This document shows positions 44,180 to 51,974 of a stretch of DNA of 64,000 nucleotides, piece after piece. The notes under the pieces are model-generated. The model ran no database searches. It had not been told where the DNA came from and was given only the letters and a program-made list of their open reading frames with translations. The DNA comes from Halopelagius inordinatus. Lineage in GTDB: Archaea > Halobacteriota > Halobacteria > Halobacteriales > Haloferacaceae. The position numbers were made by a program, and so were the translations under genes. Each line of letters begins with the position of its first letter. Position 1 is the first letter of the stretch. The DNA lies in the NCBI RefSeq assembly GCF_900113245.1, contig NZ_FOOQ01000001.1, forward strand, positions 1-64,000, read 5' to 3'.

Positions 44180-45216
44180 TCGGCGGTCACCTCCTCCTCG
44201 TCGCCCGTCTCGTCCAGCACCGAATCGTACACGTGCGTCCCGCCGCCCGAGAGCGCGTCGACTATCGGGTCGCGGTTGTTCGCGTCCGCGACGATGACCT
44301 CCGTCGCGCCGCCAGAGAGCGCCTCTTCGGCCGCCATGACCTTCTTGGTCATGAACCCCTCCGCGGCGTCTTCGAGCGCCTCGAACTCCGCTGCGGTCCG
44401 CACGGACTCGATGAGCGTCGAATCGTCGTCGGGGTTCTCGTAGACGCCCGACACGTCCGTGAGAACCACCAGTTGCGCGCCGAGTGCGCCCGCGACGGCC
44501 GCCGCCGCGCGGTCCGCGTCCGCGTTGACCGGAACGCCGTCGTCCGCGAGCATCGGGACGGTGACGACGGGCACGTAGCCGTCGCCCAACAGCGTCGAGA
44601 GAAGCGAGGCGTTCACGTCGGTTATCTTCCCCGAGTGGTCGCCGCGCTTTATCTTCTTCTTGCCGTCCTCTACCACGCGGACGGCCGACTTACGAGGGCC
44701 CGTGAGGAGGCCGCCGTCGACGCCCGACAGGCCCAGAGCGTCCACGCCCGCCTCCCGCAGGGTGGCGACGATATCGGTATTGAGCTTTCCGGGCATCACC
44801 ATCGTGAACACCTCCATCGTGCGCTCGTCGGTGAACCGGCCGACGACGCCGCCCGGCGTCTCGACGTAGGTGGCTTCCTCGCCGAGTTCTTCGAGCGTCT
44901 CGTCCACCGCCGTCGAACCGCCGTGGACGACGACCACCTCGCGGCCGTTGGCGACGAGGTGAGCCACGTCTTGAATCGCGCCCGCGGGGTCTACGGCGCG
45001 CGCGCCGCCTATCTTCACGACGACCGGCGGGTCCTCGTTCGGCGGTTCGTCTTCGTGGTCGTCGATGATCGGCTCTCCGCCGTCGGGTGCTACCCGACAT
45101 GCTCCCGAGCCTGACGGCTCGGGACCGCCGTCAGATGGAATCTGACGTGCTTTCGAGCCTTTCGAGTCGGTCGACTCGCGCGCGGTTCGTGCGTCGGTGG
45201 TATCTGTGGTGTGCAT
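44176..45216 (-). CDS. argB: ArgW-glutamate kinase (ArgB/LysZ) with N-terminal extension
   Basis: Phosphorylates the carrier-bound glutamate. The amino-acid kinase core spans about residues 67-346, with PPVVVKIGGARAVDP, VVVHGGSTAVDETLEELG, VDGGLLTGPRKSAVRVVEDGKKK and VVLTDVSGVYENP. From the ATG at 45216 there is an extra, non-homologous 66 residues rich in Asp, Ser, Gly and Glu. Much of that stretch is coded by perfect DNA hairpins (45082-45147). A GTG at 45018 would give a core starting KIGG, though this would cut into the first β-strand. Which start is used is unknown. Confidence 0.85.
   Translation of the reverse strand: MHTTDTTDARTARESTDSKGSKARQIPSDGGPEPSGSGACRVAPDGGEPIIDDHEDEPPNEDPPVVVKIGGARAVDPAGAIQDVAHLVANGREVVVVHGGSTAVDETLEELGEEATYVETPGGVVGRFTDERTMEVFTMVMPGKLNTDIVATLREAGVDALGLSGVDGGLLTGPRKSAVRVVEDGKKKIKRGDHSGKITDVNASLLSTLLGDGYVPVVTVPMLADDGVPVNADADRAAAAVAGALGAQLVVLTDVSGVYENPDDDSTLIESVRTAAEFEALEDAAEGFMTKKVMAAEEALSGGATEVIVADANNRDPIVDALSGGGTHVYDSVLDETGDEEEVTAE
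45082..45178. repeat. Cluster of DNA hairpins in the 5' part of argB
   Basis: Four successive inverted repeats: GTCGGGT-GCT-ACCCGAC (45082-45098), TCCCGAGCC-TGAC-GGCTCGGGA (45103-45124), CGTCAGAT-GGA-ATCTGACG (45129-45147, an 8-3-8 hairpin) and CGAGTCG-GT-CGACTCG (45163-45178). All are perfect. They coincide with the extra N-terminal segment of ArgB and are absent from the kinase core. Similar hairpins lie at 49075-49112 and 50469-50580. Confidence 0.7.
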
Positions 45217-49042: not shown

Positions 49043-50332
49043 CTACTCCTCGCTTTCGTCTTCGCCCGCGCCGTCACCAGACAGCGTCTGGTGGGCAGAC
49101 GAGCTTTGCTCGGCTACGTCGGTGGCGAGTTCGGGCTTGTCCTTCGTCGCGTTCTCGTAGGCGGCGTTCGCGAGGCGCGACTGGAAGCCGTGGTACTTCG
49201 CGACGCCGGTCGCGTCCTGTTGGGTGATGCCGTTGACCGTCTCGGTGTTGAACGACGCGGCTTCCTCGGAGTACGCCGAGAAGTCGCTCTCGCGACTGAC
49301 GGCGCGGGCCATCCCGCCCTCGAACTTGACGGTGACTTTGCCGGTGACTTTCGTCTGGGTCTGCTCTATGAAGCCTTCGAGCGCCTTCATCAGCGGGGAC
49401 TCGACGAGTCCCTCGTAGCCCTTCTGGGACCACTCGTTGTCCACGGTCGTCTTGAAGTCGCGTTCGTCCTTCGTGAGAACGAGCTGTTCGAGTCCCTCGT
49501 GGGCGGTCAGAAGCGTCGTCGCCGCGGGGTGTTCGTAGTTCTCGCGGACCTTCAGCCCGAGCATGCGGTCTTCCATCATGTCCGTGCGGCCGACGCCGTG
49601 TTTGCCCGCCTCCTCGTTGAGATGTTCGATGATGTCCGCGGGCTCCATCTCCTCGCCGTCGATGGCGGTGGGGTAGCCGTTCTCGAACGTTATCTCGACG
49701 AGGCCCGTCCCCGTCTCGTTCGCCGGGTCGTCGGTCCACTCGTAGATGTCCTCCGGCGGGACGTAGCTCGGGTCTTCGAGCTGTCCGCCCTCGATGGAGC
49801 GACTCCAGAGGTTCGTGTCGATGGACCAGACGCCGTCGTTCCCGCTCTGGACGGGCAGGCCCTTCTCCTCTGCGTACTCCATCTCCCACTCGCGGGTCAG
49901 ACCCATCTCGCGGACGGGCGCGACCACGTCGAGGTCGGAGGCGCGCCAGACCGTCTCGAAGCGGAGTTGGTCGTTACCCTTCCCGGTACAGCCGTGTGCG
50001 ACCGCGTCGCAGCCCTCCTCCTTTGCGACGTCGAGGATGGCGTTCGCGATGACCGGACGCGCCAGCGCCGTCCCGAGCGGGTAGCCTTGGTACGTCGCGT
50101 TCGCGCGAACCGAGTCGAAACACAACTCCGCGAACTCGTCTTTCGCGTCGACGACGTGCAGGTCGAGTCCGTGCGCGTTCGCCGTCTCTTCTGCCTCTTC
50201 GAACTCCGACTGTGGTTGTCCGACGTCCACCGTCACGCCGACGACTTCGTCGTAGCCGTACTCCTCTTTCAGGAGCGAGACGCAGACTGTCGTGTCGAGG
50301 CCACCGGAGAACGCGAGTGCAACGCTTGTCAT
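49043..50332 (-). CDS. argG: Argininosuccinate synthase
   Basis: Condenses citrulline and aspartate using ATP. The 429 residues start MTSVALAFSGGLDTTVC with the PP-loop SGGLDT, and show TVDVGQP, AHGCTGKGNDQLRFE and MEDRMLGLKVRENYEHPAATTLL. The final 25 residues (SSSAHQTLSGDGAGEDESEE) are a low-complexity acidic tail beyond the core. Part of it is coded by a hairpin (49075-49093). A TATA box GGTATAAATT about 30 nt upstream makes the message leaderless. Confidence 0.96.
   Translation of the reverse strand: MTSVALAFSGGLDTTVCVSLLKEEYGYDEVVGVTVDVGQPQSEFEEAEETANAHGLDLHVVDAKDEFAELCFDSVRANATYQGYPLGTALARPVIANAILDVAKEEGCDAVAHGCTGKGNDQLRFETVWRASDLDVVAPVREMGLTREWEMEYAEEKGLPVQSGNDGVWSIDTNLWSRSIEGGQLEDPSYVPPEDIYEWTDDPANETGTGLVEITFENGYPTAIDGEEMEPADIIEHLNEEAGKHGVGRTDMMEDRMLGLKVRENYEHPAATTLLTAHEGLEQLVLTKDERDFKTTVDNEWSQKGYEGLVESPLMKALEGFIEQTQTKVTGKVTVKFEGGMARAVSRESDFSAYSEEAASFNTETVNGITQQDATGVAKYHGFQSRLANAAYENATKDKPELATDVAEQSSSAHQTLSGDGAGEDESEE
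49075..49112. repeat. Two hairpins in the 3' end of argG
   Basis: CACCAGAC-AGC-GTCTGGTG (49075-49093), an 8-3-8 hairpin with the same stem as the fourth hairpin of the 50.5-kb array but a different loop, and CGAGC-TTT-GCTCG (49100-49112). They code for the acidic C-terminal tail of ArgG. Confidence 0.65.
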
Positions 50333-50357: not shown

Positions 50358-50366
50358 GTATAAATT
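50358..50366 (-). promoter_or_regulatory. Leaderless promoter of argG-argH
   Basis: GTATAAATT on the plus strand (AATTTATAC on minus) is centred about 30 nt upstream of the argG ATG, matching a TATA box of a leaderless haloarchaeal transcript. The nearby TTGAATTTACGAAATAAAG is also AT-rich. Confidence 0.65.
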
Positions 50367-50468
50367 ACACGGTTTGAATTTACGAAATAAAGGCGCAGAG
50401 ATGTCTATAGGGTCGCTAAAAGCTATTGAGTTCGTTTCGTCGAAACCGTCGAAGAGTGTAGTATAGTT

Positions 50469-50655
50469 GGCCCTAAAGGGCCGGTCGTCGCCGTCGCAGG
50501 GCGTCGCCCTGCGGCCCGTCGGACTGCGTCCGACGACGTCGCGAGACTGCGTCTCGCGGGCCACCAGACGTAGTCTGGTGACGCCGCCGCGCGTCAGCAA
50601 CCGAACGCGACGAGGTGAGGAGAACGGCCGTCTCGGGGTCCGTCTCACCGAGACG
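50469..50655. repeat. Array of short hairpins in the argG upstream region
   Basis: Within a 451-nt gene-free interval between the argG promoter and the antiporter gene. Hairpins: GGCCCT-AA-AGGGCC (50469-50482); then four 19-nt hairpins with an 8-bp perfect stem and 3-nt loop at 50495-50513 (loop GTC), 50517-50535 (TGC), 50540-50558 (TGC) and 50562-50580 (GTA). Start-to-start distances are 22, 23 and 22 nt. A further CGTCTC-ACC-GAGACG hairpin is at 50641-50655. The stem sequences differ, but structure and spacing are kept. Nothing in the rest of the interval is recognisable. Confidence 0.85.
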
Positions 50656-50783
50656 CGCGGCTCCGGGGACGCCGAACCGAGCGGCCTCCGAGAGCCTCGT
50701 CATCGGTAGTCAGTATCGAACGCACCGTATTAAACGCTTTCGGGGGTGCAAAGCTTGCCACTCGCGTCGCCGCTTGACTTCGA

Positions 50784-51974
50784 CTACTCCGACCCCGGAC
50801 TCCGCCGGAACACGAGTCGTTCGACCAGGTCGGAACGCTCCATCAGTACGGTTCCGAGCGCACTCATCACGAGGACGTAGCCGACGGCGAAGGCGGGGAT
50901 GACCTCTCGCATCACCTGCGTGGACCCGCCGGCGGCCAACGCCGCGATGACCAACGAGAACTCGCCGCGCGGGACCATCCCGACGCCGACGCGGACCGAC
51001 CGCCGCGCCGAGAGGTCGTACACTCGCCCGCCGAAATAGCCCGTCAGAACCTTCGTCGGCGTGGTGACGACGACGGCGACGACCACGGGGACGACGACTG
51101 CGGCCACCAGTCGCGGGTCGGTTCCGACGCCGATCCAAAAGAAGAACACGGCCGCGAACACGTCTCTGACGGGTGCCAGCGTCCGCTCGATTCGCTCGCG
51201 GTGACCGCTCGTCGAGAAACCCATGCCGACGAAGAAGGCCGCCACCGCTTCGCTCACGCCGAGCGAAAGCGCCGCGCCCGCGACGGGGACGACCACCCCG
51301 AGCGTTCGGAGGACGAACGGTTCCGGGTCCGAAACGTCGAGGACGCGCGCGAAGAAGGCCGTCCCGTACTGCACGGCGAGAAACAGGACGCCGAGAAATC
51401 CGAAGGCGATTGCCACGCCCTCGGCGACGGAGCCGAGTCCCTCGCCGCCGACGACGAGGGAGGTGACGAAGGCGAGATACGCCGCCATCACGAGGTCCTC
51501 GAAGACGAGCGTTCCGAGTATCGGTTCGGACTCGGGGTTGGCTATCCAGCCGAGGTCTATCACCGTCTTCGTGATGATGGCCGACGAGGAGACGTAGACG
51601 ATGCCGCCCAAGAGGAGCGATTCGACCACAGACCACCCGAGGAGGAGGCCGATACCGACGCCGACGGGGAGGTTGACGGCGATATCTATCGCGCCCGCGC
51701 GAGTAATTTTCGTCCTCGACTCGAGGAGTCGGTCCAAGCTGAACTCCAACCCGAGGAAGAAAAGCAGGAGGACGATACCCACCTCAGCCAGAAGCGTCAC
51801 CGTCTCACCGCCTTCGACGTACGGAAGCCCCGCCCGCCCGGCGACGTACGGTCCGGCGAGGACGCCCCCGACGACGTACAGGGGGATGACGGAGAGTCCG
51901 AGACGGAGTGCGACTGCGCCCGCGACGGCGACGACGACGAACAGTTCTCCCAGCGATAGCAGTCCCGCCGCCAT
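50784..51974 (-). CDS. CPA2-type cation/proton antiporter
   Basis: A 396-residue membrane protein with about 12 helices. The family signatures include LLLFFLGLEFSLDRLLESR, SSSAIITKTVIDLG, GTLVFEDLVMAAYLAF with the ED pair, and VRVGVGMVPRGEFSLVIAALA. It matches the KefB/NapA CPA2 family, exchanging K+ or Na+ for H+. An RCK_C-type subunit gene lies 3 nt upstream on the same strand, as in KhtTU systems. Ion specificity is not decided. Confidence 0.92.
   Translation of the reverse strand: MAAGLLSLGELFVVVAVAGAVALRLGLSVIPLYVVGGVLAGPYVAGRAGLPYVEGGETVTLLAEVGIVLLLFFLGLEFSLDRLLESRTKITRAGAIDIAVNLPVGVGIGLLLGWSVVESLLLGGIVYVSSSAIITKTVIDLGWIANPESEPILGTLVFEDLVMAAYLAFVTSLVVGGEGLGSVAEGVAIAFGFLGVLFLAVQYGTAFFARVLDVSDPEPFVLRTLGVVVPVAGAALSLGVSEAVAAFFVGMGFSTSGHRERIERTLAPVRDVFAAVFFFWIGVGTDPRLVAAVVVPVVVAVVVTTPTKVLTGYFGGRVYDLSARRSVRVGVGMVPRGEFSLVIAALAAGGSTQVMREVIPAFAVGYVLVMSALGTVLMERSDLVERLVFRRSPGSE

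Follow-up and report, generated by a model that had tools for sequence, protein, structure and literature searches.

Upstream of argG, in the 64,000-nt window of the Halopelagius inordinatus genome analysed here, four perfect hairpins follow one another that share their geometry and differ in sequence. What is this array, and why do its arms pair so exactly? The first-pass annotation had described four exact hairpins with 8-bp stems and 3-nt loops at 50495-50513, 50517-50535, 50540-50558 and 50562-50580, and we could confirm both their coordinates and their period: the start-to-start distances are 22, 23 and 22 nt, and the spacers are GCC, ACGT and GGC. Folded as single-stranded DNA, a 121-nt stretch with the array reaches −41.7 kcal/mol (z = −3.1). 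Thirty simulated windows of 64 kb (Markov-1) contained 312 single 8-bp hairpins, one pair and no longer cluster, as compared to one cluster of four in the real window. The exact arrangement 8-3-8, GGC or GCC, 8-3-8 was found in 11 hairpin pairs in a 464-kb sample of the genome and in none of the order-5 Markov simulations (n = 20). Tandem Repeats Finder gave no result on the array, which is expected because the copies differ in sequence. A search of Rfam with the array at a relaxed threshold returned chance-level matches, with no family above the threshold.

Unrelated loci of the same format, found by similarity search and then collected, revealed that the true unit is a hairpin pair. The dispersed unit reads CGT-(19-nt hairpin)-GGC-(19-nt hairpin)-ACG, i.e. 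41 nt plus 4, giving a net length of 45 bp. The array contains two such units in opposite orientation with one ACGT in common (Table 1), and its true period is 45 bp with two hairpins per period. Our main conclusion, to which we give a probability of roughly 0.8, is that the array represents two tandem, oppositely oriented copies of a dispersed 45-bp mobile palindromic element of haloarchaea. It is not private to this locus and is probably coding, with two in-frame copies of a dispersed insertion rather than a stand-alone non-coding element.

Table 1. Palindromic units and argG-associated features in the window
Feature	Position	Strand	Details
Palindromic unit A	50491..50539	-	Exact stems; R1 match 66 bits, E 3e-15; plus-strand letters (CGCAGGGC-CGT-GCCCTGCG) GCC (CGTCGGAC-TGC-GTCCGACG), flanks CCGT / ACGT
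Palindromic unit B	50536..50584	+	Exact stems; R1 match 70 bits, E 2e-16; letters (CGCGAGAC-TGC-GTCTCGCG) GGC (CACCAGAC-GTA-GTCTGGTG), flanks ACGT / ACGC
Third unit copy	49071..49119	+	Inside 3' end of argG; R1 E 5e-14
argG, argininosuccinate synthase	49043..50332	-	429 aa
argG TATA-like box (AATTTATACC)	50358..50367	-	About 27 nt upstream of argG ATG; from sequence
Hairpin GGCCC-TTTA-GGGCC spanning leader stop codon	50469..50482	-	C-G to G-C covariation in relatives
Predicted leader ORF	50473..50703	-	76 codons, ending RRRRPAL before the stop; conserved in relatives
BRE/TATA-like promoter (CCGAAAGCGTTTAATA)	50728..50743	-	TATA about 30 nt upstream of leader ATG; similar in most of 53 leaders
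Cation/proton antiporter-like gene	50784..51974	-	Upstream of leader; name from the first-pass annotation and sequence

The distribution of the unit was followed with a covariance model, R1, built from 19 units selected for good pairing. Expressed as lower bounds, since only part of the candidates was scored, about 47 distinct places in the own genome match R1 at E ≤ 1e-4, 32 of 60 relatives match at E ≤ 1e-8, and 104 of 194 sampled genomes of Halobacteria, from 39 of 65 genera, match at E ≤ 1e-9. Among 197 genomes drawn from the phylum, 15 had R1 matches, all from the same order as the own genome, and none outside the class Halobacteria. A covariance search had been proposed in the annotation as a check on the array; arrays of this format occur in other genomes too and, by the simulations, far above random expectation. 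A further cluster of three hairpins (17-22 nt) lies at 45074-45155 of the window and matches the unit model weakly.

The format is kept strictly. In 53 copies from two sister genomes the GGC/GCC joint is present 48 times, and in most copies the left flank and the first base of the stem together spell CGTC (C in 51/53, G in 45/53 and T in 42/53), mirrored at the other end; part of this terminal CGTC is paired or target-derived. The stem has 8 bp and the loop 3 nt throughout the modelled set, and the first two stem pairs are in most copies C-G and then G-C. The two hairpins of a unit are placed tail to tail, 3 nt apart, and heads meet only where units abut. While about one position in three differs between copies, 94% of stem positions form Watson-Crick pairs. 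Nearest neighbours within the own genome are identical at 31-36 of the 41 nt, and no pair is closer than 36/41. The earlier view of a constrained format with free sequence is borne out. The pairs covary, 15 of 16 having double changes, although these counts are inflated by the preselection of rows for good pairing. Longer arrays of related hairpins occur at L017/L053 (genome G003), L018/L058 (G033) and L038 (own genome, C1:1270469); their stems have 9-10 bp, their spacers alternate, and there are as many as six hairpins. They are probably an apex-extended form of the unit family.

The annotation had also concluded that folding is under selection at this locus. Our results point elsewhere: the array is restricted to its own species, none of the ~60 further argG leaders inspected having it; units are inserted whole, as 45 bp; and the small number of copies whose changes could be followed at one site show no compensation. 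Furthermore, G.T and A.C mismatches are equally rare in the stems (11 each in the 53 copies), so there is no wobble signature and nothing indicates an RNA strand. These findings bear on another possibility, namely that selection maintains RNA folding here and the array acts as a structured RNA or as a regulatory 5' region of argG. The position within the argG leader and the compensated changes between copies would fit such an RNA, but its absence from the other leaders, the occurrence of the same units in both orientations inside unrelated enzymes, the mismatch counts and the lack of an Rfam family above threshold make it highly improbable. A single-copy structured RNA was rejected in view of the dispersed copies.

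Evidence of insertion comes from empty sites. For sixteen units the two flanks were joined, leaving the unit out, and used as a query in the sister species; the corresponding site was found for 14 of them, and all 14 were empty. Seven cases are clean (L061, L064, L067, L069, L070, L071 and L084), the filled site being longer by exactly 45 bp, at a CGT or ACGT target and with a 3-4 bp repeat. In one of these, CTCGTCGG followed by CGTCCGT has become CTCGTCGG followed by CGT, the 41-nt insert and ACGTCCGT. Outgroup genomes are empty at most sites tested, with the exception of purH, which is filled in G044 and empty in G001, G041 and G020. The argG copy in Table 1 encodes 15 extra amino acids, VAEQSSSAHQTLSGD, that are missing from the ArgG orthologues shown. 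Since sister sites and most outgroup sites are empty, and the ArgG orthologues and the ~60 leaders are without the insert, the traced units are gains in this lineage, and the copies in argG and in the argG leader are derived there. Tandem 45-bp units occur elsewhere too, in histidine kinases of G044 and G049, where they form 15-aa repeats.

Units are mostly intragenic and in frame. Their hosts include genes that we take, from reading the sequences, to be purF, purH, trpE, a MATE transporter, ABC exporters and histidine kinases. The frame of the surrounding ORF could be called with confidence for 39 among the 56 copies examined, and 38 of these 39 use one phase; frames were assigned by composition, because third-position substitutions gave unreliable calls. 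In-phase copies encode peptides like V-[AD]-E-x-x-S-S-A-x-Q-T-x-S-G-D; a number of copies lie between genes or use another phase. This recurrent polar 15-aa peptide, shared across genera in a single phase, could mean that the units are protein-coding repeats under selection and that the palindromes are a by-product. However, in the same genes 37 of 40 GACGTC sites and 156 of 202 ACGT sites already sit in the phase that the unit prefers, so most of the phase bias can be put down to the target. Coding constraint also needs no base-for-base match between stem arms, copies outside the preferred phase exist, and at the sites tested the orthologues are as a rule free of the insert. Selection for the peptide is for these reasons very unlikely as the source of the units, and one-phase use was dropped as a sign of protein-level selection.

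Certain positions carry units in several genomes. In ABC exporter ATPases, units stand at one position after Walker A, at R.YD^V, in three families (L135 in G133, L145 in G071 and L154 in G005). In histidine kinases, 45-bp units sit at the motif FRNAVEHG (L197 and L198 in G044, L199 in G049, L160 in G116), and the native GTCGAGCACGGCTC sequence of the kinase seems itself to form one hairpin of the unit.

Why, then, do the stems differ and still pair? Insertion of the tested copies postdates the split from the sister, which is ~83-92% identical in the stretches compared. In-place evolution could be followed in four comparisons in all: loops changed and stems took single changes that were left uncompensated (L137/L237/L238; trpE L151/L158), and in the merA pair L140/L239 all 41 nt are identical within flanks of 87% identity, which could reflect conservation or recent re-insertion. 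Same-site pairs across genera (purH L064/L150; ABC exporters L135/L145) differ in their stems by compensated changes only. For purH, the idea of compensatory evolution of one orthologous copy was set aside, the empty outgroups making independent insertions at one target likelier; old insertion followed by selection on pairing is a lesser but conceivable explanation of the purH and ABC exporter pairs. One could also suppose that quasi-palindrome correction, i.e. strand-switching repair, keeps the palindromes perfect in place and that mobility is not the source of their perfection. The 94% Watson-Crick stems agree with this, and so does one merA site at which the second hairpin of L162 (G065) differs from L240 (G236) and L239 (G227) by a symmetric apex insertion of 3 nt on each side. 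Copies followed in place nevertheless show uncompensated stem changes together with loop changes, and the tested copies are recent, leaving little time for several compensated changes each. We regard such correction as quite unlikely. The simplest reading is that palindromes are perfect when made and then decay, and are not kept by selection on folding.

How perfect stems would arise at birth can be stated tentatively. Fold-back synthesis in a hairpin intermediate would copy one arm from the other; mutations of the parent would reappear in the copy as compensated pairs, and sequences would diversify while the format stays. We put the chances of this scheme at a little short of even. As for the movement itself, it is fairly likely that a trans-acting enzyme would recognise the geometry of the hairpins, in DNA that is probably single-stranded or cruciform, and insert copies at GACGTC-like sites, and that the ACGT left at the insertion junction would act as a new target, leading to tandem 45-bp arrays such as the one in the argG leader.

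Units could instead be cis-elements of resident transposons of the IS200/IS605 type, true REPs moved by RAYT or by the Y1 transposase TnpA. Their hairpin format resembles REPs and IS605 ends, and in genome G006 copies lie within a larger repeat of IS605-like appearance. However, the Y1 transposase family PF01797 has no match in either the own genome (G000) or its sister (G001), the two genomes richest in units; recent loss of the enzyme would be compatible with this. A Y1 or RAYT origin is unsupported for the own genus by this search, and as a general account we consider it unlikely. Regarding G006, eight unit copies there have identical scores, and the three compared (L004, L015 and L020) sit in repeated sequence of ~0.5 kb that looks like an IS605-type or MITE-like end.

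Palindromes of related design are known. CGTC-tagged REPs are defined by CGTC at one end, a stem of 8-9 bp, a loop of 4-5 nt and complementary A/T residues at stem positions 1 and 2; they have a short unpaired tail, mostly CCA, occur predominantly as head-to-head dimers and were found in bacterial phyla only in the survey, which identifies two families of Rickettsia palindromic elements (RPEs) with CGTC REPs (Di Nocera et al. 2013, PMC3733652). The unit of haloarchaea is like them in its CGTC at the outer ends, 8-bp stems, paired organisation, sequence-heterogeneous families, intragenic copies and lack of a dedicated transposase. In contrast to them it has a 3-nt loop, lacks A/T at the first two stem pairs, has the GGC/GCC joint in place of a CCA tail, and keeps its heads outward in a fixed length of 45 bp. 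Because of these differences in loop, first stem pairs, tail and dimer orientation we do not class it as a CGTC REP. With RPEs the unit shares palindromic structure, in-frame location within genes and absence from orthologues; it has 45 bp and two hairpins, and the likeness is one of format. BIMEs and REPINs with RAYT are likewise mosaics of inverted hairpins in tandem, whereas the unit is mostly intragenic rather than extragenic and differs from RAYT-moved REPs by the lack of a detected Y1 enzyme in G000 and G001. In haloarchaea, the SMRs of Haloquadratum have ~80-110 bp, inverted termini, often over 95% identity within a type and no target duplication, and PATEs carry palindromes near their ends and are related to IS605 (PMC3119063). 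Like SMRs and PATEs the unit is a small transposase-free repeat, but it is sequence-diverse, 45 bp long and flanked by a 3-4 bp target repeat.

In its way of working, this in-frame insertion family of hairpin pairs resembles REPs and RPEs. Short palindromic insertions within genes are already known from bacteria (REPs, RPEs); we found no published description of the 45-bp unit, or of such in-gene palindromes in archaea, in the open-access papers searched. For the origin of sequence-diverse and still perfect palindromes the unit family offers a clean system, with exact empty sister sites, a fixed 45 bp that preserves frame, dozens of differing copies and no Y1 enzyme (G000, G001). All traced copies are recent, and with this family it should be possible to follow how palindromes come into being.

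At argG itself, the array had been annotated as non-coding. It lies instead within the predicted leader ORF, to which it adds 30 codons. The ORF of the sister has 45 codons and, without the array, reads MTRLADAGRFGG...VPRRRRPAR before the stop. In relatives the start is variable and the end arginine-rich (RRPAL, RRPGL, RRPGR, RRRAL), the stop lies 130-190 nt before argG, within or next to a GGSCC-NNNN-GGSCC hairpin that shows C-G/G-C covariation, and a TATA-like box precedes the ATG by ~30 nt in most cases. This distance suggests a leaderless transcript. The rare arginine codon CGA makes up 73 of 208 among the last eight codons before a conserved CCG, compared to 0.52% in four genes of the window. 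The array would only lengthen the variable middle of the ORF by its 30 codons, touching neither the CGA-rich end nor the hairpin at the stop codon, and we lean towards its local effect being near neutral.

A model of the leader region, R2, has a single match in each of 47 genomes among 79 Halobacteria, and the 30 matches fetched all lie upstream of argG. In relatives the leader stands ~150 nt before the gene (L085-L114 and L204-L233). The leader is also present in named species of Haloferax, Halogeometricum, Haloplanus, Halobaculum and Natrinema. A simple pattern finds it in 43 of 80 named loci and, among these 80, not in the Halorubrum examples listed. Relatives of Haloferax volcanii carry the leader MATRSTFATFAPLRAAAVRPRRRAL; the start-site study of Haloferax volcanii lists 16 uORFs, none at argG, for 5'-UTRs of 150-250 nt (PMC4983044). 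The argG leader ORF is apparently undescribed, and we found no published account of an argG leader in the open-access papers searched.

Bacteria have amino-acid leader peptides and attenuators (for example at speF, PMC6386406), and fungi have the arginine attenuator peptide; these are short ORFs with codons for the end product near the stop, placed before a biosynthetic gene. The argG leader ORF has both properties, an arginine codon run near its stop and a position before a biosynthetic gene; it differs in being archaeal and apparently leaderless and in that argG has its own promoter. The obvious guess, an arginine-sensing leader peptide, stays a candidate, and argG has its own TATA box nearby. 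With a conserved arginine-rich leader in front of argG, archaea would offer a test of ribosome-dependent control over amino-acid synthesis. It is doubtful, though possible, that everything proposed holds jointly: a mobile element defined by geometry and not by sequence, fold-back birth, a non-Y1 enzyme acting at GACGTC, 15-aa inserts in host proteins, and an arginine-codon leader that would control argG as the first archaeal attenuator-like leader of a biosynthetic operon. The first 30 nt past the stop-codon hairpin are G-poor and C/T/A-rich in relatives (13% G, against a regional 30%) and may serve for termination or factor loading.
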